This document shows, one piece after another, positions 14,202-39,584 of a stretch of DNA of 64,000 nucleotides. Both the position numbers and the translations under genes were made by a program. Location of the stretch: positions 1,054,001 to 1,118,000 of the forward strand of contig NZ_JADALJ010000001.1 in assembly GCF_014876185.1 (NCBI RefSeq). Direction: 5' to 3'. Source of the stretch: Rufibacter sp. LB8 (GTDB lineage Bacteria; Bacteroidota; Bacteroidia; Cytophagales; Hymenobacteraceae). The notes beneath the pieces were generated by a model that worked only from the letters and a program-made list of their open reading frames with translations, did no database searches and was not told the origin of the DNA. Positions within the stretch are counted from its first letter, which is position 1. Each line of letters starts with the position of its first letter.

Positions 14202-14267
14202 CCTTAACGGTTAGTATAAACGACGGCAAGGCCGTCGGCCGAAGCTGACGTTTATGCAATGTTAGCT
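14202..14267 (-). repeat. attC of cassette C38 (array end)
   Basis: Arms GTATAAACGACGG / CTGACGTTTATGC around GGCCGTCGGCC. The right box GTTAGCTGGT is complementary to ACCAGCTAAC at the other end of C38. The left box (CTTAAC) is the array terminus. Confidence 0.85.
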
Positions 14268-14749
14268 GGTGTAGTTTTTCTTTTTAAAATGTTCCACCAT
14301 TCCCATTTTGTCAACTGGTAACCGATAAAGAACCCTGCTGTCCTTAAAGTCCATGTTAATACTATTTCTACCGTTCTTGCATTGTCGATAAGGTGAAAGT
14401 CAGTTGTTTCTGCCGATTTCACGAACCCATATATCAAGACGATGAAAGTAATCAAGAGAATAAGAACCCGTAGAATTTTATAGGCTAATTCTTTGACATA
14501 TTTTTCAAATAGCTGAAAGAACAGATAAGTGGCAAGAATCGGAGGTGCGAAATTGGCGCCAATTATAAATGCAAGTCCTTTAGTCGGGTTTTCTCTTATT
14601 ATGTGACCGTGCCCTTTGTAAAATGCTTCTCCTTGATAGTCGAAGTTGGACTTTAGAAAATTGCTTAGTAGAAGAACAAGTCCGACAAGAATGAGAGTCA
14701 CGACCCCAAATGAAAGAATCTTGTATAGGCTTGAGTCTTTTGAATTCAT
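14252..14749 (-). CDS. C38: four-segment membrane protein, unknown
   Basis: A 165-residue protein with four likely membrane segments (about residues 10-30, 58-82, 90-112, 130-150), ending in a basic tail. No family was recognised. The frame extends far upstream, but through the neighbouring site and the gene-less cassette C37, so I start at MNSKDSSLYK (14749), 20 nt after the site. Its last residues (ANIA) and stop codon are encoded inside its own attC. It is the cassette farthest from the recombinase. Confidence 0.7.
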   Translation of the reverse strand: MNSKDSSLYKILSFGVVTLILVGLVLLLSNFLKSNFDYQGEAFYKGHGHIIRENPTKGLAFIIGANFAPPILATYLFFQLFEKYVKELAYKILRVLILLITFIVLIYGFVKSAETTDFHLIDNARTVEIVLTWTLRTAGFFIGYQLTKWEWWNILKRKTTPANIA

Positions 14750-14769
14750 TTTTTTATTCTTTCTATACC

Positions 14770-14835
14770 AGCTAACGTCTAATATAAAAAACGGCGAAGG
14801 CCGTCGGCCGAGATGATTTTTATACAATGTTGGCG
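14770..14835 (-). repeat. attC of cassette C37
   Basis: Arms ATATAAAAAACGGCG / GATGATTTTTATAC around GGCCGTCGGCC. Right box GTTGGCGG pairs with CCGCCAAC at the far end of C37. Confidence 0.85.
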
Positions 14836-15216
14836 GACGTTGTTGTTTTATTTTCCCCGCGTATTTTTTCTGCTTTTGACCTGATTTCAGAAAAACAGCC
14901 CGAAAACAGGAAATCGGAGTGTTTGAATTATTCCGATTACAAGTCCAGTTTTGGACTGATTTCCGTAAAACAGGCCGAAAACGCAAATCTGTCCGTCGGT
15001 GATGCACGCATTTTGCGTCAATTCTTGCTCAAACGCAACGTCAATTCCACTTCTGCAACATTGGCTGAAAGTCGGAGGCGTTCCCAACTTCTGCTAAACT
15101 AATCAAAATCCTCTGCTGATTTTCTTCTGCAAGTCCAGACGATTTTTTTTAGAACTTCTGCCACTCTTGCTGATGTTTTTCTGCCGTTCCAGCTGATAAA
15201 ATGTTCTTTCAATGAC
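14836..15216 (-). other. C37: gene-less cassette (non-coding family)
   Basis: About 380 bp without a credible gene. It shares with C28, C19, C16, C9 and C4 two tandem palindromes related to the genome-wide element (near 14869-14912 and 14943-14985), then the blocks GCATTTTGCGTCAATTC, CTCAAACGCAACGTCAATTC and a GTCGG..GCGTTC stretch. It may carry a small RNA or a regulatory region; this is inference. Confidence 0.7.
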
Positions 15217-15285
15217 CGCCAACGGCCTCGTGCATGAGGCGTGCAAGGCCGTCGGCCGTAGCATGGCTTATGCACATTGTTGGCA
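15217..15285 (-). repeat. attC of cassette C36
   Basis: Arms GTGCATGAGGCGTGC / GCATGGCTTATGCAC around GGCCGTCGGCC. Right box GTTGGCAG pairs with CTGCCAAC at the far end of C36. Confidence 0.85.
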
Positions 15286-15289
15286 GTAG

Positions 15290-16003
15290 TTAATATTCTA
15301 GCTCAAAAGTTCCGACTTCGCCTTTTTTTATGTAGATACTGTCCCTTCTAGATATCCTTTGTCCATTTTTCTTGATTAATATCATAAACTGAGTATACTG
15401 GTTACCTGCTGTAATGCCCGATACTTCATATTTGGCAAAAGGAGGGTCTGAACCATAGAACCAATAATTGTGGTTACTGCTTATCTGCTCAACTGGGATG
15501 CCGCCAGAGCCATATGTGTTAATCAAAGGTATTGCCTGGAAAAAATCATCTGAAGAATTCGGACTGAAATTCTTAAATACTACTTTAACTGTTGCCTTGC
15601 TGGGTAAATGTACGTTTGCCGTTACAGTTGTGTCCGTTTTGTTGATACCGTAGTGGCTGTCAAACTGATAATGGTAGCTATTATCCTTTTTTACGGATAT
15701 GTAGTATTGCCCTTCCTCCAATTCTCTGGCTGTAGGCGAAAAGCTAAAAGTATAGCGTCCTTTTTCATCCGTACTCCCTTTAGAGATTAATCTACCTGGA
15801 TTGCCTATAGGTGTAGCAGGGCTGTTCCAACCTAATTCTACAGAAGCACCTGGTACTGGGGTTTGTGAGCCTTGCCCAGTATTGACAGTTATATTGAACG
15901 TCACGCAATTTTGCTTGCAGGGGATATTGACCATAGATTCGTCCCTAGTAAAACAACCTTGTAATAGAAAAGCGACTATTAATAAGTATAAAATGTTTTT
16001 CAT
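15290..16003 (-). CDS. C36: lipoprotein with Ig-like domains, unknown
   Basis: A 237-residue lipoprotein (signal ILYLLIVAFLLQGC). Residues about 35-130 look like a carboxypeptidase-regulatory or Ig-like beta-sandwich (VPGASVELGWNS, then STDEKGRYTFSFSP), and a second beta-rich domain follows. Probably envelope-anchored. The frame stays open upstream, but I start at MKNILYLL because the signal peptide and the 19-nt leader after the site both fit. Confidence 0.75.
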   Translation of the reverse strand: MKNILYLLIVAFLLQGCFTRDESMVNIPCKQNCVTFNITVNTGQGSQTPVPGASVELGWNSPATPIGNPGRLISKGSTDEKGRYTFSFSPTARELEEGQYYISVKKDNSYHYQFDSHYGINKTDTTVTANVHLPSKATVKVVFKNFSPNSSDDFFQAIPLINTYGSGGIPVEQISSNHNYWFYGSDPPFAKYEVSGITAGNQYTQFMILIKKNGQRISRRDSIYIKKGEVGTFELEY

Positions 16004-16022
16004 GATTTTGAGATTTAATTTC

Positions 16023-16154
16023 TGCCAACGGTTTGCAGCTACAAGAAGTTGGCGATTACGAAGCACAAAACTGTCTGCCAGCACTAAACTTGATACGAAG
16101 CACAAAGCTTCATTTAACCACTGAACCGCCAATTTCTTGTAGGTGCTGTTACCT
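16023..16154 (-). repeat. attC of cassette C35, long divergent type (132 bp)
   Basis: It lacks the GGCCGTCGGCC core. Outer arms GCAGCTACAAGAAGTTGGCG and CGCCAATTTCTTGTAGGTGC pair with few mismatches, and the inner part contains GATACGAAGCACAAAGC-type short repeats. Right box GTTACCTGC pairs exactly with GCAGGTAAC at the far end of C35. Confidence 0.8.
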
Positions 16155-16173
16155 GCTGGCATTTCTGTTGTTA

Positions 16174-17424
16174 TTAAACTGTCCTCGCAATTTTCTTAAG
16201 TATATTATGACTTTCTCCAAATTTGCAAAGTGCATCACAATGTTCTCTTAACTCCGAGAACAAAATATATTGAATTTTTGTTTGACTGCTTTTTATAGAT
16301 GGTCTAGAAAGTTGCATTACTACTTCCTTTTCTCTTTTGTTAGGTAAAACAATATATAGGTGTTGTTCACTTTCTGTGAAAGAATATGATAAGTCTGTCA
16401 ACCTTAATATTCCTGAATAAATGGAAGTGCTTTTTTCAACCTCAAACGCACAAATTGGCTTGTTTGTCCCTTTCTCAAACCAAACAACATCAATAAGTCC
16501 AACGGTGTTATAAGTTTCTTTGCTAATTTCCATTTTAGGAAAATTAGATAAACTTAAAAATGAAAAATTATTTCCTTGGTGAGATTTAGATCGGTCATTC
16601 GATGCACTAATTACATCATAACCTAATGCTTGTCCAATTTTCAGTAAATGATACTGCATTTCGGTGTGTACATCAACTTCTAATTGCTCACTCTCTACTT
16701 CTTTCCTTCTTTTCTCTACTTGCTTTTCAAATTTAATTTTGTCTTCTTCTGTTATAAATTTTTCTTCGCCAATAATCATTTTCTTTGCACCTATTTCAAA
16801 TAGTAACCCTGAAAACGCACCAAGGTCGTTAGAAAGTAAAGATTTATGTTTTTCATTTGTTTCAATTAATGTTTCTCGTAGTTTGAGATATTCATTCCAA
16901 GAACCTAATTTTTTGTTGTCATTGAATAGTGTGTTGTAACCATTGACAATTGCAGTGTTAAATGGTGGAATAGTAGTAGGATGCAAAAAATACAAAATGC
17001 TTGCGACCGCAGGACCAAGTCCTTTAATTTTAAGTTGGTCCAGTTTTATTATTTCTTTTAAAATCGCATCTTCTTTTGTGTTGTAATTAAAACAGTTTTC
17101 TAAAAATTGTCCGAAATCGTTTTTATTTTTTTCATTTTCATAAATGTCCGGAATTCTTAATTTTGGTTTCCAATAAAAGGGATGAGCGACACCAACAAAA
17201 ACTTGCTTTTGCTCCGAAATACAAGATAAAACAAACTCTAAGGAACTTCCTTTAAAATCGTTTGGAAAATTTTTATCCTTAATGTCATTTATAACCTGCT
17301 GTACCCCTCTGCGAATTGAACGAAAAGCTTTTAGTCTTTCATCATTATTGGCGAACCAAGTATTGTAAACACTCTCGGGGTCTGCTTTATAATTTCTTAT
17401 TAGTAGTTCAAACTTTTCTGTCAT
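16174..17424 (-). CDS. C35: putative HhH / PD-(D/E)XK nuclease
   Basis: A 416-residue protein, the largest in the array. Residues about 130-175 hold a helix-hairpin-helix-like DNA-binding stretch ([17 protein letters not shown]). The C-terminal third has a restriction-endonuclease-like pattern: [11 protein letters not shown], then [15 protein letters not shown], that is D...ExE-K. This suggests a DNA nuclease, perhaps an orphan type II-like or defence enzyme; no methyltransferase is adjacent. Its cassette carries one of only two long divergent attC sites, so it may come from a different array. The function is inferred from motifs only. Confidence 0.6.
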
Positions 17425-17445
17425 GGTTGTCTTTTTTATGCTTGC

Positions 17446-17512
17446 AGGTAACGGTTTGGCTAAACGACGGCGGAGGCCGTCGGCCGATGCTGGCGTTTAG
17501 CTCTTGTTAGCG
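17446..17512 (-). repeat. attC of cassette C34
   Basis: Arms GGCTAAACGACGG / CTGGCGTTTAGC around GGCCGTCGGCC. Right box GTTAGCGGTA pairs with TACCGCTAAC at the far end of C34. Confidence 0.85.
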
Positions 17513-17524
17513 GTAGGGCTTTTT

Positions 17525-17932
17525 TTAATATTTTAGATAGTCTACTTTTTCTAAAGTCCCAGCGAATTGCATTAGATGACCTTTGCTTGCAGAATTCACC
17601 AGTCCGCGAACAATAACTTTTTTATTTTTCAGCTTTTCCAGCTCTTCTTCAGGCAATAATCCTTCTTCAAAGTCCGTCCAAAGAGCATTTTTTGAATCTT
17701 TCCTGTTTGCGTCCGCCCGAGTTTTATATAATCCAACATTCTCAAATTCATAGAGCAAGATTCCCGTTGCTTCTATATATTTTCCGTCAAATCGGCTGGG
17801 ATTTTCAAGAAGCGTATTAATTTCCACGCTTATATACTTAGTCGATTCTTCTTTTGTCGTTTTGAATTCTTTGGATTCATTGCAACTAAAGAGAAAAAGC
17901 GGTAATAAGATTGTTAAGAGTCTATTCTTCAT
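17525..17932 (-). CDS. C34: small lipoprotein with OB-fold-like domain
   Basis: A 135-residue lipoprotein (LLPLFLFSC). The mature part (ISVEINTLLENPSRFDGKYI, then KKVIVRGLVNSASKGHLMQF) resembles OB-fold 'tRNA_anti-like' lipoproteins, in which a first strand announces loss or gain of a ligand site. Function unknown. The leader between site and ATG is about 16 nt. Confidence 0.7.
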   Translation of the reverse strand: MKNRLLTILLPLFLFSCNESKEFKTTKEESTKYISVEINTLLENPSRFDGKYIEATGILLYEFENVGLYKTRADANRKDSKNALWTDFEEGLLPEEELEKLKNKKVIVRGLVNSASKGHLMQFAGTLEKVDYLKY

Positions 17933-17947
17933 TTTTCTATGCCTTAC

Positions 17948-18014
17948 CGCTAACGGACTTGGCTAAACGACGGCGAAGGACGTCGGCCGAGATGACGTTT
18001 AGCCTTTGTTAGCT
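17948..18014 (-). repeat. attC of cassette C33
   Basis: Arms GGCTAAACGACGG / GATGACGTTTAGCC; the core is GGACGTCGGCC, one base off. Right box GTTAGCTGTT pairs with AACAGCTAAC at the far end of C33. Confidence 0.85.
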
Positions 18015-18515
18015 GTTGTTCTTTCTTCTTCTTTTAAAGATAAATTTTATTTCCTCTAACCAACTACTTTTTTGCCCCTGTTGATTATCTGTTTGATTTG
18101 AAGAATTTTCTGATTCATTTACTGGGAACCATTCCTTGCCGGTAAGATATTTTTCAAAATCCGAAAGCAACAAGGAAGCCGCTTTCTCTAAATAGTCCTG
18201 TTCTACGTCCTGGTCTTCTTTAAGAACAAAATAAACCAATTGTCCGCCGAGGTGTGTTTCAGGTGGAGTTGTGTTAACTATTCTAATCTCAAAACCATAG
18301 TCTACAGGATGATAGGCATTCGAGACCCTTACAACCCTTTCAGCCGCTTTGTTGATGTATTCTATTTGGTCATAAATAATAACCCCATTCGGTTGCTTAC
18401 TTTCGGTATGCGTCGGTTTATCATAGCCGTAGTCCGTTGAAAGGCATTCAAAAAACCTCAGTGACTTCTCAATGAAGTTTTTCCTTTTAGCATCATATTG
18501 CTCTTTTATATTCAT
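18009..18515 (-). CDS. C33: unknown soluble protein
   Basis: A 168-residue cytoplasmic-looking protein with a central alternating strand/helix part (DQIEYINKAAERVVRVSNAYHP, cut by a VDYGFEIRIVN strand), a Gln/Ser/Asn-rich linker near residue 140 and a very basic tail (FIFKRRRKNN). No family was recognised; the first part is reminiscent of small immunity-type proteins, at low confidence. Its TAA stop is formed by the attC box itself. Confidence 0.7.
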   Translation of the reverse strand: MNIKEQYDAKRKNFIEKSLRFFECLSTDYGYDKPTHTESKQPNGVIIYDQIEYINKAAERVVRVSNAYHPVDYGFEIRIVNTTPPETHLGGQLVYFVLKEDQDVEQDYLEKAASLLLSDFEKYLTGKEWFPVNESENSSNQTDNQQGQKSSWLEEIKFIFKRRRKNNS

Positions 18516-18527
18516 AATATGAATAAC

Positions 18528-18595
18528 AGCTAACGGTTAGTATAAAAAACGTGCGAGGCCGTCGGCCGTAGCATGATTTTTATGCAATGTTGGGT
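18528..18595 (-). repeat. attC of cassette C32
   Basis: Arms GTATAAAAAACGTGC / GCATGATTTTTATGC around GGCCGTCGGCC. Right box GTTGGGTG pairs with CACCCAAC at the far end of C32. Confidence 0.85.
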
Positions 18596-18607
18596 GAAGC
18601 CATTTTT

Positions 18608-18979
18608 TTATTTACAGCTTACAACGCCAGCTTTAAAGTTTATTTTAGACACGCTTGGGTCTATTCTGCTATATGTTATTTTAATGCATTCCCCAATATT
18701 TGGATTTAAGCCATCCTGTGATTTTTGACTAGCTTCATATTTTTGTCCGTTAACTTGATAGTCGTAATGGATTAATGGATAAAGTGAAACTCTTACTCCT
18801 TTTGAATTTTGAAGGAAAGTCACTTTCCCTGTCGTTTCTGCCGAATCCTTAAAAGCTTTTTCTTTATATAAGTAGTTGTTTACGCCCCAAATTAAAGCTG
18901 CTGAAAAGAAAACAGTCATTACCAGTCTATAAGTTGTGAATTCTATTCCTGCAATTTTGAACAAGTATTTCTTTTCCAA
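18608..18979 (-). CDS. C32: DUF3592-like membrane protein, paralogue of C24
   Basis: A 123-residue protein with one N-terminal membrane segment (LVMTVFFSAALIWGVNNYL) and an exported beta-rich part (ETTGKVTFLQNSKGVRVSLYP, interrupted before IHYDYQVNGQKYEAS), the layout of DUF3592 proteins. It has the same length as the C24 product (23976-24347) and is about three quarters identical by eye, so this cassette exists twice in the array in diverged form. Confidence 0.75.
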   Translation of the reverse strand: MEKKYLFKIAGIEFTTYRLVMTVFFSAALIWGVNNYLYKEKAFKDSAETTGKVTFLQNSKGVRVSLYPLIHYDYQVNGQKYEASQKSQDGLNPNIGECIKITYSRIDPSVSKINFKAGVVSCK

Positions 18980-18997
18980 TTTTTATTTTATTGGTTA

Positions 18998-19067
18998 CAC
19001 CCAACGGCCTCGTGCATGAGACGTGCAAGGCCGTCGGCCGTAGCATGGCTTATGCACAATGTTAGCA
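18998..19067 (-). repeat. attC of cassette C31
   Basis: Arms GTGCATGAGACGTGC / GCATGGCTTATGCAC around GGCCGTCGGCC. Right box GTTAGCAATA pairs with TATTGCTAAC at the far end of C31. Confidence 0.85.
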
Positions 19068-19077
19068 ATAGGAGTTT

Positions 19078-19575
19078 TTATTCTAGTACAAGCGCTATAT
19101 CAAACTTACCTAGCTGCTTAGAAAAATCAGCTAAAAAAGAAGGCTTGAGCCATACTGTATCTTTCGTGTCCTGTCGAATGATTTGCATTTCTATGATATT
19201 GCTAAATATTTCGTGTCGATAAGATTCTTCTTGAAAGGTGAAGTTAGGCAAGTTGCTTCCGCTTGAAGCCGCTGAATGGGGGTTGATTATCATCTTATAA
19301 TATTCTAGTCCGTCCCGGTTTTCTTTTAAATATGTACCGCCAGAACTGTCCTTTGTCAGTTTACTATCCTCCGCTTTCCAGTCTTTTTTAAGCTTATAGA
19401 ATTCAATGGTGTCCTTTATTGCAAAATCATAATCACTTCTTTGAGTTGGCATTAGTGAGAAAGTGATTATGATTTTATCTTGAGTATTATTGATTATGTA
19501 GAAACTGGATAGCCATGAACAGCCACTAAGACTGAAAACCAAAATCGAATAAATGAATAGTAAACTTTTCTTCAT
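19078..19575 (-). CDS. C31: lipoprotein, unknown
   Basis: A 165-residue lipoprotein (signal ending ILVFSLSGC). The mature protein has beta-strand patterning (SFYIINNTQDKIIITFSLMP) and ends FDIALVLE. No family was recognised. The ATG lies only 8 nt after the preceding site, the shortest leader in the array. Confidence 0.7.
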   Translation of the reverse strand: MKKSLLFIYSILVFSLSGCSWLSSFYIINNTQDKIIITFSLMPTQRSDYDFAIKDTIEFYKLKKDWKAEDSKLTKDSSGGTYLKENRDGLEYYKMIINPHSAASSGSNLPNFTFQEESYRHEIFSNIIEMQIIRQDTKDTVWLKPSFLADFSKQLGKFDIALVLE

Positions 19576-19583
19576 TCTCTTAT

Positions 19584-19650
19584 TGCTAACGGTTTAGCTA
19601 AACGACGGCCAAGGCCGTCGGCCGAGTCTGGCGTTTAGCTGTTGTTGTGG
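19584..19650 (-). repeat. attC of cassette C30
   Basis: Arms AGCTAAACGACGG / CTGGCGTTTAGCT around GGCCGTCGGCC. Right box GTTGTGGTGC pairs exactly with GCACCACAAC at the far end of C30. Confidence 0.85.
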
Positions 19651-19668
19651 TGCGTTTTTCTTTCTGCT

Positions 19669-20136
19669 TTAGCTATCAAAATCCTGACATTCTACTTCAC
19701 AAACATAACAGCCAATTTCCTTCAGCTTTGGTAATGTGTTATTCAAATAATACCCATAGTCAGTGTACCTGTCAGAGCCGATGATTCTTTTACCGATTCC
19801 AGGGGTAATGTGCAATTCGTAATGCTTTGCATACCCACTGTTTTTATTCTCTAGTGGGTAAATCAGGAGAATGTTACATTCAAAGTATTCCCTATCACAA
19901 AATGTAATAGCGTTCAGTTTGTTGCTCCTTTCCCTATTGTCCAGTATTTTGTAAACTTCTTCTACATCATAGAATACTTTATAGTCGAAGTCGTCAAGGT
20001 CATTAACCGCTATAGAAGAGAATTTTCCGTTTTGGTCTTTGAGAGTCCAGAAATCATTGGTGAAATCGCGGATGAGGTCTGATAGAGTTTTATGGTTAGT
20101 AACTACTCTTATTTTGATTGACCTTGAAACGCTCAT
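19669..20136 (-). CDS. C30: unknown soluble protein
   Basis: A 155-residue acidic protein without a signal peptide. Notable stretches are ISDLIRDF-like helices near the start, a strand NILLIYPLE in the middle and a Cys-containing end (GCYVCEVECQDFDS). No family was recognised. The leader is about 19 nt. Confidence 0.65.
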   Translation of the reverse strand: MSVSRSIKIRVVTNHKTLSDLIRDFTNDFWTLKDQNGKFSSIAVNDLDDFDYKVFYDVEEVYKILDNRERSNKLNAITFCDREYFECNILLIYPLENKNSGYAKHYELHITPGIGKRIIGSDRYTDYGYYLNNTLPKLKEIGCYVCEVECQDFDS

Positions 20137-20155
20137 TTTTTATATTTTAAATGCA

Positions 20156-20223
20156 CCACAACGGTTAGTATAAAAAACGTGCGAGGCCGTCGGCCGAAGC
20201 ATGATTTTTATACAGTGTTAGCA
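20156..20223 (-). repeat. attC of cassette C29
   Basis: Arms GTATAAAAAACGTGC / GCATGATTTTTATAC around GGCCGTCGGCC. Right box GTTAGCAGT pairs with ACTGCTAAC at the far end of C29. Confidence 0.85.
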
Positions 20224-20227
20224 GTTT

Positions 20228-21007: not shown

Positions 21008-21040
21008 AAATTGTGATTTTATAAAAAGTTTATTTAGTTT

Positions 21041-32131: not shown

Positions 32132-32149
32132 GCTGGGCTTTTTATTACA

Positions 32150-32682: not shown

Positions 32683-32751
32683 AACGTTTTTTTTTTATTA
32701 AATGCGTGTTTTTAGCCTAATTTTCTAAAAACAGGCCAAAAACAAGAATGA

Positions 32752-33135
32752 TTATTCAGCGTATTTAACTGTGTCGGTTTTATAAGTTATCCGACTGGCG
32801 GCAATGTAAACATCATTTTTGTAATCTTCCGTCCGAATGATAAACAGTTGATAACCCTGCTCAATTTCATACTTTTTGTTCAATTCTATTTGAGTATTAC
32901 CTGTCGGAATTTCGATTACAGTGTTTTTAGTGTCGGTATGCCAGCCTTCGAAATAGGCTTTTACAAAAAACACGTCGTCGAATACAATTTCTAATGTATG
33001 AGAAATTGAAAGGTCGGTGCTTCCGCCAATTATTAAGCTATTACCGTCATAGCTCAGCACATGGAAGTCGAACCAAAGATTCTGTCGGATTATATGGTCT
33101 ATTTCTAAGACAGCATTTTGGTTCTGTTCTTTCAT
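32752..33135 (-). CDS. C10: unknown beta-rich protein
   Basis: A 127-residue acidic protein, nearly all strands (NSLIIGGSTDLSISHTLEIV, FDDVFFVKAYFEGW). No family was recognised. Between its stop and its attC lies a degenerate copy of the palindromic element (about 32707-32746), so the gene may carry its own terminator. Confidence 0.65.
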   Translation of the reverse strand: MKEQNQNAVLEIDHIIRQNLWFDFHVLSYDGNSLIIGGSTDLSISHTLEIVFDDVFFVKAYFEGWHTDTKNTVIEIPTGNTQIELNKKYEIEQGYQLFIIRTEDYKNDVYIAASRITYKTDTVKYAE

Positions 33136-33147
33136 TCTTTAAATGAT

Positions 33148-33214
33148 TGCCAACGGACTGGTGTAAACAACGCCGAAGGCCGTCGGCCGAGGTGAGGTTT
33201 ACACGTTGTTAGGT
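33148..33214 (-). repeat. attC of cassette C9
   Basis: Arms GTGTAAACAACGCCG / GGTGAGGTTTACAC around GGCCGTCGGCC. Right box GTTAGGTCTA pairs exactly with TAGACCTAAC at the far end of C9. Confidence 0.85.
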
Positions 33215-33572
33215 CTAGTTTTTTTTCTACAAAGACTGCTCGTCTTTTTTCTAGTTTTTGCCTGATTTCCAGAAAAGAGCCGCTAATCAGCTTTCCTGGC
33301 GCGATCCGCATTTTCTGGTTTTGGCCTCATTTTGGGAAACGAGGCCTAAAACGCATTTATAAAGTCGGGCTGCGCGCATTGAAGATAAATTCTTTTGCGC
33401 AAACGCAGCGTCAATTCCTCTTTGTCACTTTCACTGGTCAAAATCGGGCGGCGTTCCCCAACTTTTGCTAAGCTAACTTTCTACTTTAGCTGATTCAAAT
33501 TTTTCCTCTTCTGCGACTCTTTCTGATTCTTTTTTCTGCAAAGCGAGAACGGTTCTTCATGTTTAAAATTAG
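33215..33572 (-). other. C9: gene-less cassette (non-coding family)
   Basis: About 358 bp with palindrome relics (near 33250-33290 and 33310-33355), GCGCAAACGCAGCGTCAATTCC and GTCAAAATCGGGCGGCGTTCCC blocks shared with C37, C19, C16, C28 and C4. No credible gene. Confidence 0.68.
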
Positions 33573-33641
33573 ACCTAACGGACTCGTGTAAAAAGTGTGC
33601 TAGGCCGTCGGCCGACGCATAATTTTTACACAATGTTGGCT
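33573..33641 (-). repeat. attC of cassette C8
   Basis: Arms GTGTAAAAAGTGTGC / GCATAATTTTTACAC around GGCCGTCGGCC. Right box GTTGGCTT pairs with AAGCCAAT at the far end of C8, where the conserved AAC is mutated to AAT. Confidence 0.85.
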
Positions 33642-33645
33642 TACG

Positions 33646-34212
33646 TTATTTTTTCTCTTGTATTGACATTGAGTTTAGGCAATTATACAAGACATTTTTA
33701 AGTGTCAATTTGTAAAGCTCTTCCATTCTTTCGTTAGTAGCATCGGCTGATTGAACAAAAAGCTCACCACTTGTATCGCATCCTTTAATTAACTGGCCAG
33801 TCTCTTTTTTGATAAAGCTAACTTTCAGCTGTGCAAAGCTTTTTTCCTTTTCACTACTCCAAGTAGATGAAAACTCCTTGTAACTTTCACTAATGTCAAT
33901 TATCGCTTTTACAGATTCCCCGGAAGCGGTTGTGTTTTCTCTAATCACTTTTTCCAGAACTTCTTTATGGCTAACTGTTAAAGCTGGTATATGCTTTATT
34001 AAGGAATTAGGCTTTGATAAAACAGGTAATTTAATGTCCTCTGTCTTCTGGTCACTTCTGCTATCTATAATCTCAACTTCCTGTATATTGTACTGAAGTC
34101 CCAGGCGAGGTAATTCAGCTTGTTTTATCTGTGATACATAATTACTTGCAGCACAGCTTGACATTAAAGATGTCGTGAAAAATATAAAGTACCTTAATAA
34201 TCTATTGTTCAT
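33646..34212 (-). CDS. C8: lipoprotein, unknown
   Basis: A 188-residue lipoprotein (FIFFTTSLMSSC). The mature part begins LQYNIQEVEIIDSRS and resembles generic Bacteroidota envelope lipoproteins with a TolB-like or GNA1162-like beginning; no family was recognised. I start at MNNRLLRYF (34212), 18 nt after the site, rather than at the upstream ATG that overlaps it. Confidence 0.68.
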   Translation of the reverse strand: MNNRLLRYFIFFTTSLMSSCAASNYVSQIKQAELPRLGLQYNIQEVEIIDSRSDQKTEDIKLPVLSKPNSLIKHIPALTVSHKEVLEKVIRENTTASGESVKAIIDISESYKEFSSTWSSEKEKSFAQLKVSFIKKETGQLIKGCDTSGELFVQSADATNERMEELYKLTLKNVLYNCLNSMSIQEKK

Positions 34213-34230
34213 TTTTATAGTTTTAATGAA

Positions 34231-34297
34231 AGCCAATGGACTAGTATAAACGACGGCGAGGCCGTCGGCCGATGCTGGCGTTTATGCAGTGTTAGCA
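34231..34297 (-). repeat. attC of cassette C7, mutated crossover box
   Basis: Arms GTATAAACGACGG / CTGGCGTTTATGC around GGCCGTCGGCC. Right box GTTAGCAGT pairs with ACTGCTAAC at the far end of C7. On the minus strand its 3' box reads ATTGGCT instead of GTTGGCT: the G of the conserved GTT triplet is changed. Confidence 0.82.
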
Positions 34298-34301
34298 GTT
34301 G

Positions 34302-34718
34302 TTATTCTTTATTTTTTATTCGCAACTTATACTTACCTGTCTCAAGATAATGCTTCCATAATTGCATATTTGAGGGAGTTAGTGGAAAGTTAATCTCTGG
34401 ACTATCCCAGTCGTAGATTATTGTTTCTATTATTTCGCCTTCCTCTGTATTAGTATCCCAAATAAAGTATTCAGAGAAGACCAGAGCCAGGGCAATCGAG
34501 TTAATGTCTTCAAGTGTTAGATTCCCATTCAAGACTTCATTGCACAATCTAAGCAGGTGTTCTTTTCTTACCTGATATGTCGTGCCATCCTTGATTTGCT
34601 CTACTTGCACCGATGTGGTGTCATAGGTAGCTCTTTTTTGAGTGTTCTTGACATTTTCAGCTAAGGTTTCTACTGGAACCCTGTTTTCTAAGTAGTCCCT
34701 TAAAACTGTTTCTTTCAT
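34302..34718 (-). CDS. C7: possible immunity-type protein
   Basis: A 138-residue acidic protein. The second half (LLRLCNEVLNGNLTLEDINS, then FSEYFIWDTNTEEGEIIETI and DWDSPEINFPLT) has the layout of small acidic immunity proteins found in contact-dependent or colicin-type toxin systems. The resemblance is from memory and weak. No toxin is adjacent. Confidence 0.6.
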   Translation of the reverse strand: MKETVLRDYLENRVPVETLAENVKNTQKRATYDTTSVQVEQIKDGTTYQVRKEHLLRLCNEVLNGNLTLEDINSIALALVFSEYFIWDTNTEEGEIIETIIYDWDSPEINFPLTPSNMQLWKHYLETGKYKLRIKNKE

Positions 34719-34730
34719 ATTTCTAATTAC

Positions 34731-34797
34731 TGCTAACGGCCTGGTATAAACGACGCCGATGGCCGTCGGCCGAGGTGAAGTTTATGCGTTGTTAGTT
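34731..34797 (-). repeat. attC of cassette C6
   Basis: Arms GTATAAACGACGCCG / GGTGAAGTTTATGC around GGCCGTCGGCC. Right box GTTAGTTCTA pairs with TAGAACTAAC at the far end of C6. Confidence 0.85.
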
Positions 34798-34915
34798 CTA
34801 GTTTTTCTACCCGCGTTCTAGTTTCCGCTCAGCTCCAAGCCTTTGCCCGCCCTTGGACGCCGCTTCTGCTGTTTCTTCTGCCGAGTTAGCGCAGCGGTAA
34901 AATATTGTAAATTAG
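34798..34915 (-). other. C6: mini gene-less cassette
   Basis: The whole cassette is only about 130 bp plus its attC. The body contains no start-to-stop frame of useful size and no palindrome pair. It is probably a deletion relic of the non-coding family (CTTCTGCTGTTTCTTCTGCCG recalls its Cttctgc-rich section), or a minimal cassette that is mobile without a gene. Confidence 0.65.
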
Positions 34916-34983
34916 AACTAACGGTTAGTATAAACGACGCGCAAGGCCGTCGGCCGAAGGGTGACGTTTATACATTGTTAGGC
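34916..34983 (-). repeat. attC of cassette C5
   Basis: Arms GTATAAACGACGCGC / GGGTGACGTTTATAC around GGCCGTCGGCC. Right box GTTAGGCGGC pairs exactly with GCCGCCTAAC at the far end of C5. This site has a fully canonical GTTRRRY box. Confidence 0.87.
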
Positions 34984-34992
34984 GGCGACTTT

Positions 34993-35391
34993 TTATTTTA
35001 CACATTCACCAAGTCCATCTTTCCAACTGTAATACAGGCCCTGGTTACAAATACTTTTAATATTCGCATGGCTTATCCACGGGTAAAAGGCAGTTAATTC
35101 CCTTTCAAAGTCCGCCTTCAAATCCTTTTCTTTTATTGTTTCTCCCTTGTCGGTCAATTTTCCTAAAGTGGTTCTTATTATTTCAAATCCAGTCGATAGA
35201 ACTTCTTTGCTCTTTCTATTTAATTCATCTAATTCTATTGCGGTCAAGGAAGGCAGCTTTTTTGTTAGCCTAGCTTGAATCGGTTGGTTCCAATTCTGTT
35301 CCCATTCAAGCGCTAATTCAACTGATAGATTTAGAATCTCTTCTTGATTCAAAACTTTCTTTTTTAGAAACTTATTAAAAAGCTGATTCAT
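34993..35391 (-). CDS. C5: unknown helical protein
   Basis: A 132-residue, highly charged, mostly helical soluble protein (LNQEEILNLSVELALEWEQN, then ELDELNRKSKEVLSTGFEII). No family was recognised. The leader is about 15 nt. Confidence 0.65.
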   Translation of the reverse strand: MNQLFNKFLKKKVLNQEEILNLSVELALEWEQNWNQPIQARLTKKLPSLTAIELDELNRKSKEVLSTGFEIIRTTLGKLTDKGETIKEKDLKADFERELTAFYPWISHANIKSICNQGLYYSWKDGLGECVK

Positions 35392-35406
35392 TTTTCTATA
35401 GTTGCC

Positions 35407-35538
35407 GCCTAACGGTTCCGGCTAAGCGACGGCCGGGAGCCTTGCCTGATTATCCTTTAACTTACCATTATCGGCCCAAGAAAGCAACTGCGCCCGCCGC
35501 CTGATGAAAACCCGGCTGGCGTTTAGCCATTGTTACCC
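35407..35538 (-). repeat. attC of cassette C4, long divergent type (132 bp)
   Basis: Arms GGCTAAGCGACGGCCGGG and CCCGGCTGGCGTTTAGCC pair, but a spacer of about 70 bp replaces the short GGCCGTCGGCC core. Right box GTTACCCGC pairs exactly with GCGGGTAAC at the far end of C4. Confidence 0.8.
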
Positions 35539-35941
35539 GCTGTTGTTTTCTTTGCGTCTGCCGCTTCTGCCGCTTTTGCCCCTTTCCCTTTTTTGCCTCG
35601 ATTTCCCGAATCCGGCCATTAATCGCTGGCCAATGGGCCGTTTGAAGCCGTGCGCATTTTTACCGGTATCTCTTCTGCAACATAAGCCACGCATGGCCTG
35701 TATGCAGCTTGCCTTCCCGAAAACGGTCAAAAAACGGTGGCCAAGGGCCGGTGTGAGCCGCAGACATTTCAAATCGGCCTTCTTCTGCTCCGTCTGCCGG
35801 TGAAAGTCGGGCGGCGATTTCTCTCTTTTGCTAAGCTAATTAAATTCTTTTGCTGCTTTTGCAGATGTTTTTTTTGACTTCTGCTGCTCTGCGATTAACA
35901 TTTCCTACTAGGGCAGCCGAGGTTTTTATATTCACAATTGC
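35539..35941 (-). other. C4: gene-less cassette, GC-richer variant
   Basis: About 403 bp. The half next to the divergent attC is GC-rich and unlike other cassettes (repeated GGCC/CCGAAAACGGTC motifs); the other half keeps the family's GTCGGGCGGCG block and CTTCTGC-rich section. Apparent frames on both strands overlap and are not credible genes. Confidence 0.65.
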
Positions 35942-36008
35942 GGGTAACGGCTAGGCTAAACGGCGGCGGAGGCCGTCGGCCGAGGCTGGCGTTTAGCTGT
36001 TGTTCTCA
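35942..36008 (-). repeat. attC of cassette C3
   Basis: Arms GGCTAAACGGCGG / CTGGCGTTTAGC around GGCCGTCGGCC. Right box GTTCTCAGTA pairs exactly with TACTGAGAAC at the far end of C3. Confidence 0.85.
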
Positions 36009-36025
36009 GTAGTTCTTTTTCTTTT

Positions 36026-36433
36026 TTACTGATGGTTTAGAATAGAGAATTGTTCTATGTCAGAATAGTTGTCAATCGAGGCGATTTTATTTTCTAATGC
36101 TGAATAACTTCCGTTATCAACTTTTTCTGAAATAGAGTTTATTCTCTCAGTAATTTCTGAAAATCGATTAGTTTGTACTTTCTCCAAGAGTTCACATTTA
36201 TTCCAATCGTTTCCTCTATAAAGGTAAAGGCAGAAGCATCCGTCTTCCTCTTCTCCATACCAACCCAAGTCCATATGGTAATCTGATTTTGAAATTGAAA
36301 GCAAATCCTCTTGTATGTATAGATTAGAAAATAGAAAGTCGGGGTCAATAGATTTGTCCAATGGGTCTATTTCATAGAATTCATCTCTATTGATTGTCCA
36401 ACCTTCGGATAGCTTTAACAATTTATTTTTCAT
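36026..36433 (-). CDS. C3: possible immunity-type protein
   Basis: A 135-residue acidic protein with LDKSIDPDFLFSNLYIQEDL and WYGEEEDGCFCLYLYRGNDW, ending in a helix-rich tail. Size, charge and aromatic content match small immunity proteins, without a clear family. Low confidence for function, good confidence for the gene (12-nt leader, stop just before its attC). Confidence 0.62.
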   Translation of the reverse strand: MKNKLLKLSEGWTINRDEFYEIDPLDKSIDPDFLFSNLYIQEDLLSISKSDYHMDLGWYGEEEDGCFCLYLYRGNDWNKCELLEKVQTNRFSEITERINSISEKVDNGSYSALENKIASIDNYSDIEQFSILNHQ

Positions 36434-36445
36434 TCTATGAATTAC

Positions 36446-36512
36446 TGAGAACGTACTTGTGTAAACGACGGCGAGGCCGTCGGCCGCTGCTGGCGTTTAC
36501 ACGTTGTTGGCA
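36446..36512 (-). repeat. attC of cassette C2
   Basis: Arms GTGTAAACGACGG / CTGGCGTTTACAC around GGCCGTCGGCC. Right box GTTGGCAG pairs with CTGCCAAC at the far end of C2. Confidence 0.85.
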
Positions 36513-36552
36513 GGAGTTGTTTTTTCTATCTCCTGTTAGTTCTTCTTATTAA

Positions 36553-36600
36553 ATTCTGTTTTTAGCCTCTTTTCCAGAAAACAGGTCAAAAACGGAAATT
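36553..36600. repeat. Cassette-borne palindrome in C2
   Basis: CTGTTTTTAGCCTCTTTTCC / AGAAAACAGGTCAAAAACGG: a degenerate relative of the dispersed palindrome, between the C2 gene and its attC; possibly its terminator. Confidence 0.55.
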
Positions 36601-36620
36601 TCATCTTTCCAAAAATATTG

Positions 36621-36911
36621 TTAGCTGTCGGTAAAAGTAGTTTCTGTCCGCTGCCTAATTCCCTTTATAAATTTGTAGAAGAGGTAGCATATCCCAATGA
36701 TGTTTACTGCGTGCCAAAAGTAAAGTCCGACCACTACTGCTTTGTCGAAGTCGGTCATACTTTCCAAACTCCAATACTCGCCTTTGCTCTCGTCATAGTT
36801 GTCGTCGTAGCTCATCATCATGGTTCCTAAGAACATATATACAGCCAAATCGAAGAGAATTATCCCTAGCCGTAACAGAAAGCCCTTGAATGAATATAGT
36901 TTAATTTTCAC
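36621..36911 (-). CDS. C2: small membrane protein, unknown
   Basis: A 96-residue protein with two membrane segments (near residues 9-30 and 57-80) and a short acidic loop between them (SYDDNYDESKGEYW). No family was recognised. The leader is 23 nt. Confidence 0.68.
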   Translation of the reverse strand: MKIKLYSFKGFLLRLGIILFDLAVYMFLGTMMMSYDDNYDESKGEYWSLESMTDFDKAVVVGLYFWHAVNIIGICYLFYKFIKGIRQRTETTFTDS

Positions 36912-36934
36912 TTAAAATTCATGATTACAATTGC

Positions 36935-37003
36935 TGCCAACGTACTAAGCTAAACGACGGGCGAGGCCGTCGGCCGAAGACTGACGTTTAGGTGTTGTTA
37001 GGC
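36935..37003 (-). repeat. attC of cassette C1 (recombinase-proximal)
   Basis: Arms AGCTAAACGACGGG / ACTGACGTTTAGG around GGCCGTCGGCC. Right box GTTAGGCGT pairs exactly with ACGCCTAAC at 37483-37491, where C1 joins the leader region of the recombinase. Confidence 0.87.
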
Positions 37004-37013
37004 GTTAGTAATT

Positions 37014-37472
37014 TTACTTTAATGCTAATTGCTTCACCCACACATTCTCTTTATTGTTGAAGTAATCAATTATTCTACTTTCAACATGTTCTGCTGCCCA
37101 AACTGCGGCACATTCCAATCCCATGCATTCCTCTTTTGTCGATGGTGTTATTTCGCCTGTATTTGGGTTATAAATGTCAATCGAAGTAGCATCATGAGAA
37201 TCTTGAATAAATTTTAAGGGTAATACTTCAAATCTTCCATCTAACTGCACTTTCCCTACTTTTTTCCATCGTCCAGAAGTGATTGCTTCATTATAAACAG
37301 CAACAATAAAGAGCACTTCTTTATTTAGAATATCAGGAATTTCAAGATTTTCATTAGTCTTTACTTTAAAAACACCAACCGAAGCATCTTCGAGAACTAT
37401 GCCGTAGCAATGTGTGCCGTCGTCCAATGGTATTTCAACAACTGCTCCAATTGTTCGTCTTTGTTTTTTCAT
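37014..37472 (-). CDS. C1: Imm26-like immunity protein
   Basis: A 152-residue soluble protein beginning TIGAVVEIPLDDGTHCYGIV, followed by strands and RWKKVGKVQLDGRFEVLPLK. This is the pattern of the Imm26 family, immunity proteins associated with polymorphic toxins. No toxin gene is present, so it would act as an orphan immunity gene. It is the first cassette, 12 nt behind the crossover box, and therefore probably the most recent insertion. The family call is by eye. Confidence 0.65.
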   Translation of the reverse strand: MKKQRRTIGAVVEIPLDDGTHCYGIVLEDASVGVFKVKTNENLEIPDILNKEVLFIVAVYNEAITSGRWKKVGKVQLDGRFEVLPLKFIQDSHDATSIDIYNPNTGEITPSTKEECMGLECAAVWAAEHVESRIIDYFNNKENVWVKQLALK

Positions 37473-37484
37473 TGTTCTTATTAC

Positions 37485-37621
37485 GCCTAACTACAGTATA
37501 AACACACCAGGTATACTTATCAGCACTATACCTGTAGGCAGAAAGGTTGTTTTTTGGATGACCTTCATTCTTTGAGGGACGGTGAGACCACGGTATATTT
37601 AGAATTAAAAGTAACACATTA
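37485..37621 (-). other. attI-like region between recombinase and first cassette
   Basis: The minus-strand box GTTAGGC (37491-37485) marks the junction with C1. Outside it, ACAGTATAAACACACC resembles one arm of the attC sites (GTATAAAC). An inverted pair CAGGTATA (37508-37515) and TATACCTG (37527-37534), separated by 11 nt, has the 8-11-8 geometry of tyrosine-recombinase core sites. No GGCCGTCGGCC core and no second arm are present, so this end is not an attC. It abuts the recombinase stop codon at 37622. Confidence 0.6.
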
Positions 37622-39070
37622 TCACAAACAATCAAGCGGACTCACAATCTTGTCTAGGGCGTGACTTGTCACGTGGGTGTAAATTTCTGTGGTTTTGCTA
37701 TTCTTATGGCCAAGAAGTGTTTGAATATACCTTAAATCAGTGCCTTGTTCTAGCAAATGTGTCGCAAAAGAGTGTCTAAGGGTGTGAGGCGTGACTTTTG
37801 TCTGAACTCCAGCTCTCAGAACAGCCTCGTTAAAAACCTTCCGCACACTCTGCACCGTATACTGCCCACCAAATTGACCTTCAAACAGCCACTCCTTCGG
37901 TTTGTATTCCCTATAATAGAGCCGCAAACTCTCCAGTAATTTCTGAGACAATAGTGTAGTTCGGTCCTTCTTGCCTTTGCCACCCCTAATGAAGAGTAAG
38001 TTGCGGGCCGATTGTACATCCGTGATTTTCAAATTGATCACCTCCCCAATCCGAAGCCCACCTGCGTACAGCAGTTGCAGCAAGCATCTGTGTTTCTGAT
38101 TATATGTGGCAGCCATTATTCTGGCAACGTCCTGCTTGCTCAGCACCGTGGGTAATCTTTCTGGTTTTTCAGGTCGCTCAACATTGGCTAGGTGCACATC
38201 GGCGCGGCCCAAACTCCGCTGGTAATAAAATTTTATAGCATTAATGCTTTGGTTGACAAAAGAATAAGAATACGTGCCTGCCTGCACCATTTGCCTATGG
38301 TACTCGTTAATCTCCATTTCCTTGAACTGCTGGATCTTGGGTAACCCAACGTGTTTATGCCAATTCAAAAACCGCAGAAGCAGGCTATGGTAAGTTCTAA
38401 TAGTGTTTTGGCTGTAATTCAATAAAAACAATTTTTCCAGGAAGGCTAGTGGGCAAGAGATGAAGTCTTCTGGTTTGCAGAAAGTTTGCTCCCAGAGCTG
38501 CCGTAACAAGGCCACATCTTTCACTGCAAGTTCCTGGCTGAGCCAAAGCCATGCTTTTCCAGTTAGTTGCGCCTGCAGTTTCTTAAGCACCTCACCAGTG
38601 GCGGCCACCACAAATACCCGCTTTTCTTTGTGCCAATGCACAACTGGGCTCTTCTTCAAAATAGTAAATATCTCTTCAGAATACTTAAAGCTTAATGCCA
38701 CCTTTGTGCTCCCGTCCTCCAATAAAAAGGGCTGTAATTTAACTACGGGCAAATCAGGTACTTTTGGCAATGGGTCCATACCTGTCACTTCTGCCAGCAA
38801 AACGGTTGGTTTACCTGGCGTTAATCTTGGTGCCTTTTTCAAATAGACCGTAGTCACCGTGGCCACACCATGGCAATGTGCAAAGGTCCGTTCCAAGCAC
38901 TCCGGGGAATGATGCATCACAAAGGCTTTATAGGTTTTACTGAATTGAATCCAGCTGGCCTGGCGCAAATGGTTCGTCAACAATGGGTTAGCCGCATACC
39001 ACAACTTAATGAAAGTTCTACCCTGGTGGACTAACTGATTGAGATAAAGGATGGGCAACGTAGTAGCCAT
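37622..39070 (-). CDS. Tyrosine recombinase of the cassette array (non-classical integron integrase)
   Basis: Site-specific recombinase presumed to insert and excise the cassettes. Catalytic residues are all visible near the C-terminus: Arg in AGGLRIGEVI, Lys in GGKGKKDR, HTLRHSFATHLLEQG (HxxR), LLGHKNSKTTEIYTHV (His and Tyr), and an IntI/Xer-like ending SPLDCL. Only about 58 residues separate KKDR from HTLRH, against roughly 100 in IntI1, so the insertion typical of IntI is missing. About 200 residues precede the SAM-like core-binding domain (which starts near FLEKLFLLNYSQNTIRTYHS) and include a repeated wHxEKrvFvv-type motif reminiscent of HARP-like domains. The chosen start is MATTLPILY (39070); an open frame continues into the palindrome. 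It points towards the cassettes. Confidence 0.85.
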   Translation of the reverse strand: MATTLPILYLNQLVHQGRTFIKLWYAANPLLTNHLRQASWIQFSKTYKAFVMHHSPECLERTFAHCHGVATVTTVYLKKAPRLTPGKPTVLLAEVTGMDPLPKVPDLPVVKLQPFLLEDGSTKVALSFKYSEEIFTILKKSPVVHWHKEKRVFVVAATGEVLKKLQAQLTGKAWLWLSQELAVKDVALLRQLWEQTFCKPEDFISCPLAFLEKLFLLNYSQNTIRTYHSLLLRFLNWHKHVGLPKIQQFKEMEINEYHRQMVQAGTYSYSFVNQSINAIKFYYQRSLGRADVHLANVERPEKPERLPTVLSKQDVARIMAATYNQKHRCLLQLLYAGGLRIGEVINLKITDVQSARNLLFIRGGKGKKDRTTLLSQKLLESLRLYYREYKPKEWLFEGQFGGQYTVQSVRKVFNEAVLRAGVQTKVTPHTLRHSFATHLLEQGTDLRYIQTLLGHKNSKTTEIYTHVTSHALDKIVSPLDCL

Positions 39071-39124
39071 GGAGTAGCATTGTAATTTTACAGGGGTAAA
39101 AATAAAACCTTTGTAAAGGTCAGC

Positions 39125-39170
39125 CGTGTTATTACCCGTGTATATCCGGATATACACGGGTAATAACACG
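39125..39170. promoter_or_regulatory. 46-bp perfect palindrome between divergent genes
   Basis: CGTGTTATTACCCGTGTATATCC is followed immediately by its exact complement, with no loop. It lies 3 bp before the zinc-ribbon ATG and 54 bp before the recombinase ATG. Candidate operator or cruciform controlling both genes. Symmetry also makes both strands encode the same short peptide from a GTG. Confidence 0.75.
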
Positions 39171-39173
39171 GAT

Positions 39174-39584
39174 ATGGAACAAAAGGAAACAAGAAAGTGC
39201 CCTCAATGTCTCACCCCTGTGCAAGGAAGATCAGATAAAGTTTTCTGTGGGGAACAGTGTCGGTCTTTGGCGAACAATAAAAAGAAGCAACAAGATCTTG
39301 GCGAAAGGCTCATTCACCAAACCAATGCTATTTTGCGCAAAAACAGAAGCGTCCTCAAACACGCGTCGCCCAGAGGCAAGACCACGGTAAGCCTTTCACT
39401 GCTACAAAGCGCCGGATTTGATTTTAGATACCATACCCACCAATACCAGGCACAAAACGGCCGGTTATATAATTTCTGCTATGACTACGGGTACATAGTC
39501 CTTCCTCAAAACAAGGTGCTAATCGTCAATTGGCAAAATTACATGCGGGCTGTGGAGCAAGAACCTTCTCCAGAGTTCAAGTAG
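39174..39584 (+). CDS. Zinc-ribbon protein divergent from the recombinase
   Basis: A 136-residue protein with an N-terminal zinc-ribbon-like motif: CPQC near residue 9, then VFCGEQCRS near 24. A helical basic middle (NNKKKQQDLGERLIHQTNAI) and a C-terminal part (FDFRYHTHQYQAQNGRLYNF) follow. Similar proteins of this size are common in Bacteroidota; function unknown to me. Position suggests a possible regulator or accessory factor, but it may simply be a backbone neighbour. Confidence 0.75.
   Translation: MEQKETRKCPQCLTPVQGRSDKVFCGEQCRSLANNKKKQQDLGERLIHQTNAILRKNRSVLKHASPRGKTTVSLSLLQSAGFDFRYHTHQYQAQNGRLYNFCYDYGYIVLPQNKVLIVNWQNYMRAVEQEPSPEFK

Follow-up and report, generated by a model that had tools for sequence, protein, structure and literature searches.

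A stretch of 64,000 nucleotides from Rufibacter sp. LB8, a member of the Hymenobacteraceae (Bacteroidota, order Cytophagales), (termed here the window; G000:C1:1054001-1118000, within a genome of 4.75 Mb) contains an array of 38 cassettes, each ending in a site that resembles the attC sites of integrons. At one end of this array lie, in turn, a block of about 40 bp that resembles an integron attI site and the gene for a tyrosine recombinase. A first-pass annotation had delimited the region as 14202..39584 and had described it as a sedentary chromosomal integron with a tyrosine recombinase at one end. The array and the recombinase stand within these limits, but the open reading frame (ORF) at 39126-39584 is a divergent neighbour and not part of the array. 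The integron layout likewise stands, on the evidence of paired cassette ends, an attI block, exact cassette copies and near-identical cassettes elsewhere, but the recombinase is not an integron integrase (IntI); both this identity and the existence of further attI-headed arrays without a recombinase had been missed. The principal features are as follows.

37622..39169, - strand: tyrosine recombinase gene (product of 515 aa with the GTG start, or of 482 aa with an internal ATG at 39070, giving 37622-39070)
37491..37532, - strand: attI core, about 40 bp (...GTGCTGATAAGTATACCTGGTGTGTTTATACTGTA, then the G^TT of cassette 1)
14209..37491, - strand: cassette array of 38 units, each opening with GTT (ATT in one case) and closing with its own attC-like site

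The attC-like sites and their fold

The 38 sites that the annotation had assigned to one family, in one orientation and of similar length apart from two exceptions, were all confirmed: with the boundaries used here, 36 of them measure 65-68 bp, and sites 4 and 35 measure 131 bp. In the list below, '+' denotes the folded, bottom strand; the + strand of the window is what we take to be the 'bottom' strand in integron terms.

Site 1: 36935..37003, +
Site 2: 36446..36512, +
Site 3: 35942..36008, +
Site 4: 35407..35538, + (long type, 131 bp)
Site 5: 34916..34983, +
Site 6: 34731..34797, +
Site 7: 34231..34297, +
Site 8: 33573..33641, +
Site 9: 33148..33214, +
Site 10: 32614..32682, +
Site 11: 32063..32131, +
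Site 12: 31665..31732, +
Site 13: 30686..30753, +
Site 14: 30043..30111, +
Site 15: 29242..29310, +
Site 16: 28804..28869, +
Site 17: 28211..28278, +
Site 18: 27723..27789, +
Site 19: 27242..27309, +
Site 20: 26640..26708, +
Site 21: 26051..26119, +
Site 22: 25507..25574, + (one of two folded as DNA)
Site 23: 24367..24435, +
Site 24: 23899..23965, +
Site 25: 23237..23305, +
Site 26: 22582..22650, +
Site 27: 22021..22086, +
Site 28: 21559..21625, +
Site 29: 20156..20223, +
Site 30: 19584..19650, +
Site 31: 18999..19067, +
Site 32: 18528..18595, +
Site 33: 17948..18014, +
Site 34: 17446..17512, + (one of two folded as DNA)
Site 35: 16023..16154, + (long type, 131 bp)
Site 36: 15217..15285, +
Site 37: 14770..14835, +
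Site 38: 14202..14267, + (array end)

The hairpin fold of these sites exceeds chance. An alignment of the 36 regular sites describes a single hairpin: beyond an outer box (AAC/GTT) comes a spacer that is unpaired, then an inner arm of 9 bp and a GGCC-GTC-GGCC tip. The inner arm covaries strongly (one column pair, for example, is GC in 14 sites, AU in 12 and CG in 9), and double, that is, compensatory changes occur in 9 of the 19 consensus pairs. When sites 22 and 34 were folded as DNA, their z-scores were -3.9 and -4.1, and none of 200 shuffles of either was as stable.

A covariance model was built from these same 36 sites, leaving out sites 4 and 35. On the + strand of the window it recovers its 36 input sites (by construction) plus the long site 4; its 36 matches on the minus strand are weaker reverse complements of those same input sites. 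Site 35 is absent from the matches at E<=1 and was resolved instead because the ends of its cassette pair with each other, as described below. This site shares 92% identity over 130 bp with a site from a different taxonomic family (G055, locus L051), a likeness that suggests exchange of sites or cassettes across families; no counterpart of the gene in its cassette turned up in the other loci compared.

Cassette ends and traces of movement

Each cassette carries matching ends. Its start pairs with the final bases ahead of its site (R'') at 356 of 380 positions, as against 230 of 380 when R'' is compared with the R' of that site as it stands in the array; shuffling the partners 5000 times gave a mean of 237 paired positions (standard deviation 7, maximum 264). 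Position by position, pairing is seen in 37-38 of the 38 cassettes throughout positions 1-8, in 26 and 28 at positions 9 and 10, and in 36, 36 and 37 at positions 12-14. At position 11, 35 of the 38 cassettes have A.C on the top strand and hence G.T on the bottom strand, a step that could mark the strand. Pairing of this kind, within each cassette, is the pattern that excision of a circle at G^TT would leave.

Four cassettes bear directly on the question of movement:

17453..17954, - strand: cassette 34
27249..27729, - strand: cassette 19, gene-less
24374..25513, - strand: cassette 23, two genes
19006..19590, - strand: cassette 31

Two of them have exact copies elsewhere in the genome, each behind a copy of the attI block: cassette 34 at G000:C1:604887-605391 (505 of 505 bases) and cassette 19 at G000:C1:581192-581675 (484 of 484 bases). 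Each copy runs precisely from a GTT to the GTT past its own site, and both look recent. The paired ends and the exact copies therefore indicate a real integron-type platform. Near-identical units also recur in other species: the body of cassette 23 matches a copy in G010 at 1078 of 1087 positions, and that of cassette 31 matches copies in two other species at 518 of 530 (G012) and 517 of 530 (G011) positions, the recombinases of these three genomes being 59-62% identical to that of the window. Identical cassette content in distant species, which the first-pass annotation had named as evidence against its reading, was not found; rather, first cassettes differ by locus and single cassettes recur in other surroundings elsewhere.

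In cassette 31 (19006-19590; L162, L163) the body and the R boxes are kept in three species and the hairpin is not. Against a body identity of about 97.6%, the hairpin matches at 46 of 55 positions in G012, where chiefly the right arm has diverged, and at 32 of 42 aligned positions in G011, where both arms have. From such comparisons, hairpin interiors seem to have been exchanged independently of the cassettes. Among 12 pairs of cassettes with bodies at least 75% alike (one pair being the same DNA twice), mean hairpin identity was 77.3, versus 74.3 for random pairs. Counting against independent inheritance, the two 100% copies keep their hairpins, and one pair (L048) has a body identity of 97 and a hairpin identity of 100. 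A separate idea, suggested by the range of the cassette 23 match, was that a hairpin travels with the following cassette through top-strand recombination; it was dropped, as the upstream hairpin differs (44/57).

attI and satellite arrays

A block of about 40 bp that ends in TA before G^TT, and that lies about 130-160 bp past the recombinase stop codon, was recognized by eye in 22 of the 30 loci compared; the sequence beyond it differs between loci. The block is present without a following GTT in L024, and it is divergent or absent in five loci of the recombinase family (L021, L027, L038, L047, L057) and in two relatives (L048, L051). A strict attI pattern occurs at four places in the window's genome (the primary attI, 581676, 605392 and 740426), as against none for a reversed-pattern control. 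Of four relatives searched with this pattern, G006 and G013 have one occurrence each (the primary attI), and G008 and G001, whose attI deviate, have none.

The three additional copies in the window's genome head further small arrays that lack a recombinase, and the window's recombinase is the sole member of its family seen in that genome. The heads of L214, L215 and L217 match the primary attI at 35, 36 and 40 of 40 positions if GTT and the 37 bases ahead of the cut are counted, or at 33, 35 and 39 if the count takes the 40 bases before GTT; upstream of the block only 11-16 of 40 positions match. Altogether 12 satellite loci were considered, 9 of which allowed the first cassette's start to be resolved. 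The remaining resolved heads match the primary attI at 18-24 of 40 positions, four of them being still attI-like by eye and two (L219 and L224) being closer to each other.

Similar attI-like heads are found in other genomes as well. For 17 such heads (two from G001 being left out, as no primary attI was extracted there), the primary attI of the same genome was the best match, or tied for best, in 7 cases; the mean match to the own primary was 28.8 of 40, versus 20.5 to others, and none of 20000 label shuffles gave a value as high, this statistic ignoring the relatedness of the genomes. Scoring of first-cassette heads yielded 13 that are attI-like (including the primary of G001 and two from the window's genome), 6 that are attC, 14 that are other and 32 that could not be resolved; several of the 14 'other' heads are attI-like by eye, yet fail the regular expression. 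An attI-like tail precedes 10 of 3938 background GTT. From this dispersal of attI copies it seems that a single enzyme can serve several contexts of expression per genome.

The recombinase

In the 482-aa form, residues 1-180 are modelled as two tandem bbabbab domains, and residues 200-482 form an Xer/IntI-like core without the IntI insert; Pfam recognizes a phage-integrase domain with a SAM-like domain ahead of it. The N-terminal domains were compared with domains of the HARP, XPB-DRD and MutS-I type, and their best structural matches, which are weak, are XPB damage-recognition domains.

The recombinase is not an IntI: the insert is absent, the score is below the TIGR02249 cut-off and the protein lies outside the IntI clade. 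All 13 NCBIfam models remain under their cut-offs (among them NF040815 at 208 of 220, TIGR02249 at 201.4 of 265, XerD at 196 of 330 and XerC at 188 of 335), and the TIGR02249 match falls into two pieces (7-177 and 241-315) that skip model positions 178-240. The insert, of about 42 residues, occurs in none of the 21 members of the recombinase family, as against 29 of 29 IntI references (chosen from 120 homologues of the G027 IntI among the matches listed; 14 are named integron integrase and the rest were taken as IntI by homology). Between the KDR and HxLR motifs there are 61 residues in all 21 family members and 61-63 in 13 of 14 further relatives, versus 62-69 in Xer references (16 rows) and 100-110 in every one of the 29 IntI references; the fourteenth relative, L150, is a 192-aa fragment and was left out of the tree. 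In that tree (79 rows, with the insert columns removed), the 29 IntI form one clade (100/99) and the recombinase family forms another (100/99), which is separate from XerC/XerD; the window's genome has XerC/XerD-type enzymes of its own. The family groups with 12 further relatives (88/91), two of which come from G005 and G007, members of the window's own genus; L060 is unplaced. Long branches were flagged, so that the tree does not rank Xer or IntI as the nearer group.

The recombinase gene runs in the same direction as the cassettes; intI genes are usually divergent from theirs. A long palindrome (TGTTATTACCCGTGTATATCCGGATATACACGGGTAATAACA) occupies 39126-39169, between the recombinase and its divergent neighbour, and a similar one is present in L023; it may be an operator. 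None of three Bacteroidetes SOS motifs (PMC8565304) was found in the 400 bp upstream of the recombinase. A different genome, G040, has eight scattered tyrosine recombinases; each is 326 aa long, they share 38-39% identity with the query, and they are probably a separate mobile element.

Co-distribution of the recombinase and the sites

Among 37 Hymenobacteraceae genomes examined, sites occur in 28 (from four genera) and are lacking in 9 (from two genera), and the recombinase (E<=1e-80) occurs in 27 of the 28 site-bearing genomes and in none of the 9 site-free ones. G023 is the one site-bearing genome without it, and G005 and G007 carry the sister type. Two other genomes of a site-free genus, which lie outside the site survey, have relatives at E 1e-62 to 1e-65.

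The flanks of the recombinase gene were compared by scanning up to 1.5 kb on each side (slightly more upstream in two loci) for model matches at E<=1e-3. Downstream of the gene, and on its opposite strand, 19 of the 26 loci have matches; of the 25 loci with sequence on the upstream side, one has a match there. Six loci have none within range. The one upstream instance is an attC-like site at 754-829 of L072 (from G010), a locus in which the contig stops 222 bp downstream of the gene. In longer, mainly downstream stretches, downstream matches occur in 26 of 28 loci; the two without any are L038 and L036, which is again the G010 locus. In the window itself, the covariance model finds no sites on the far side of the recombinase (39170-64000). 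An IntI scored above its cut-off in 1 of 59 genomes (G027, L042); it has the insert and an internal stop, and no attC-like sites were found near it.

Three relatives of the recombinase from outside Hymenobacteraceae also lie beside attC-like arrays. That of G045 has 285 aa, shares 47% identity over 278 residues and lacks the N-terminal domains; its array has 14 candidate sites in one direction, with 9 cassettes that pass end pairing, as against 3 candidates and no cassettes on the opposite strand. Behind the relative in G039 there are 10 candidate sites and 4 passing cassettes (none on the opposite strand), and three sites lie beside the relative in G055. At E<=1e-50, relatives of the G045 enzyme are present in 110 of 291 genomes sampled from the order and in 61 of 115 genera, including some Hymenobacteraceae, most being counted by E-value alone; no array was seen at eight inspected loci of relatives. 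The window's own type of site occurs in 7 of 296 genomes of an even sample of the phylum, the window's genome included.

Cassette content and genomic surroundings

The earlier count of 31 coding and 7 gene-less cassettes, with 33 genes, fits if ORFs of at most 90 aa in the latter are not counted. The gene-less cassettes are 4, 6, 9, 16, 19, 28 and 37, which contain ORFs of 41-90 aa or none; on the opposite strand, 4, 16 and 28 have ORFs of 100-147 aa. Two genes each are present in cassettes 23 and 29. Six of the seven gene-less cassettes (35414-35948, 33155-33579, 28811-29248, 27249-27729, 21566-22027 and 14777-15223) form a homologous family that has relatives in the arrays of other species and that contains conserved blocks; no common long ORF was noticed. 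A palindromic repeat (GGCCTGATTT...AAAACAGGCC) occurs at about 10 places in the window outside the array (e.g., 6224, 11816, 44102, 54877 and 60038) and about 10 inside it, gene-less cassettes included, and is perhaps a genome-wide family of terminators or repetitive extragenic palindromic (REP)-like elements. Among the coding cassettes, cassette 13 (30771-31631) encodes a PD-DExK/NucC-like nuclease (DUF6602; PADLOC NucC 1e-22), cassette 35 (16174-17424) a restriction-enzyme-like protein (PADLOC 4.8e-6) and cassette 1 (37014-37472) an Imm26-like protein.

The far end of the array faces a GHL10 gene (12570-14090). Beyond the recombinase there is a small divergent gene, followed by the genes for ribosomal protein L20 and IF-3; the product of a further gene past these is presumably threonyl-tRNA synthetase.

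39126-39584, + strand: divergent neighbour ORF, outside the array

Interpretation and alternatives

The locus is very probably an integron-type platform (attI, 38 cassettes and 38 attC-like sites with predicted hairpins) that is likely driven by the adjacent non-IntI recombinase, which lacks the IntI insert. In the mechanism proposed, a hairpin would form from the bottom strand at the attC-like site of a cassette, and the recombinase would cut it at the conserved G^TT; the cassette would thereby be freed as a circle and could be inserted at attI or at another attC-like site. We infer, from comparisons of sequence, that the adjacent recombinase would catalyse this reaction, that single-stranded hairpins would be its substrate and that it would act in trans on the attI copies. 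The two modelled N-terminal domains are candidates for recognizing the hairpin in place of the insert; against such a role, the shorter G045 relative, which lacks them, also adjoins an array.

The locus might instead be an ordinary IntI integron that has lost its intI, that is, a cluster of attC sites lacking an integron integrase (CALIN), in which case the neighbouring recombinase would be unrelated and the cassettes would have been moved by a past or outside IntI. CALINs are common and have been described as moved in trans (PMC9668308), one relative (G027) has a true IntI, and G023 has sites without a recombinase. This is nevertheless improbable: an attI lies behind the recombinase gene in most of the loci compared; sites are found downstream in 19 of 26 loci versus upstream in 1 of 25; the presence of the recombinase matches that of the sites (27 of 28 versus 0 of 9 genomes); the only IntI above its cut-off in 59 genomes is broken and has no sites found nearby; and the 100% cassette copies look recent. 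It is less probable still that the cassettes depend for their movement on the host's XerC/XerD, in the manner of integrative elements that exploit Xer, given that the 9 array-free Hymenobacteraceae genomes also have Xer-type matches, that attI adjoins a recombinase other than XerC/XerD and that the sites have the G^TT junction and the R/L architecture of attC.

The least probable of these explanations, and one that hardly needs to be reckoned with, is that the sites are non-mobile hairpin repeats (terminators or REP-like elements) that happen to fall between genes. A run of A does precede many sites, several gene ends adjoin or fall within a site, and a second family of palindromic repeats occurs here and there in the window; set against this are the matching ends carried by each cassette, the whole units copied with exact ends behind attI copies, and the recurrence of near-identical units in other species.

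Beyond the platform driven by an adjacent non-IntI recombinase, a wider proposal may be put forward tentatively, as one that we consider somewhat more apt to fail than to hold. There may be a second, Cytophagales-wide lineage of integron recombinases that would move folded attC hairpins without the IntI insert and that would include, in some members, two N-terminal domains that read DNA structure. Several attI docking copies per chromosome would make this a 'distributed integron', and hairpin tips would be swapped between attC sites, since the insert held to block a second strand exchange is lacking; such swapping would explain near-identical cassettes with different hairpins.

Relation to known systems and significance

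By function the system is integron-like and by membership its recombinase is not an IntI; it is, in other words, an integron without an IntI. Features generally ascribed to sedentary chromosomal integrons (of Vibrio and others) recur here, namely an attI by the recombinase gene, one-way and mostly single-gene cassettes, mostly orphan genes, and hairpin attC sites with R and L boxes, an unpaired central spacer and G^TT ends. Unlike sedentary IntI integrons, this system has a recombinase that is outside the IntI clade, that has no insert and whose gene is co-directional with the cassettes; cassette ends whose pairing spans 14 positions, position 11 being an A.C/G.T step in 35 of 38; several attI copies per genome; and none of the three Bacteroidetes SOS motifs in the 400 bp upstream. 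As with CALIN elements, a scanner that demands the IntI-specific domain would probably class the array among them, but this array adjoins an attI and a recombinase that is co-distributed with the sites, and satellite arrays open with attI-like sequences. In contrast to Xer proteins (archaeal XerA, XerC/XerD), the recombinase scores below the XerC/XerD cut-offs, forms a separate clade, has extra N-terminal domains and is linked to cassette arrays. The extra domain of IntI is said, in work by Messier and Roy from 2001, to be necessary for activity.

Relocated pieces of attI, and cassettes located away from the main attI, recall the attG sites and delta-attI cassettes of class 1 and class 2 integrons (PMC12901181); unlike the attI pieces described there, which replace the attC behind a gene, the copies of about 40 bp found here precede small arrays. 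Integrons have been listed for Bacteroidota (PMC8618304; PMC9668308), and the account of IntegronFinder 2.0 reports first In0 and later a single complete integron in Bacteroidetes proper, that of Salinibacter ruber M1 (PMC9024848). Among the papers listed, judged by their titles and the openings of their abstracts and including few subscription papers and preprints, none concerned an integron with a non-IntI recombinase or integrons of Rufibacter or Pontibacter.

An added domain, held to have opened single-strand recombination, serves both to recognize integron integrases and to explain their evolution: this extra domain is the mark that separates IntI from other integrases (PMC9024848), a 2008 survey picked sequences holding the extra domain or patch (PMC2426708), and it has been proposed both that gain of an I2-like domain opened single-strand recombination and that contact of this domain with attC avoids a second cleavage (PMC4792948). 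Here a recombinase without the insert lies beside the cassettes and likely moves them; gene capture of this kind, therefore, may not need the insert. A platform that has the other tested features of integrons, together with a recombinase that lacks the domain, makes the role of this domain directly testable: the insert may be dispensable, another part of the protein may do its work, or the capability may predate the insert. If this is true, then surveys that demand the IntI domain would miss such recombinases and would count their arrays as orphan attC clusters.

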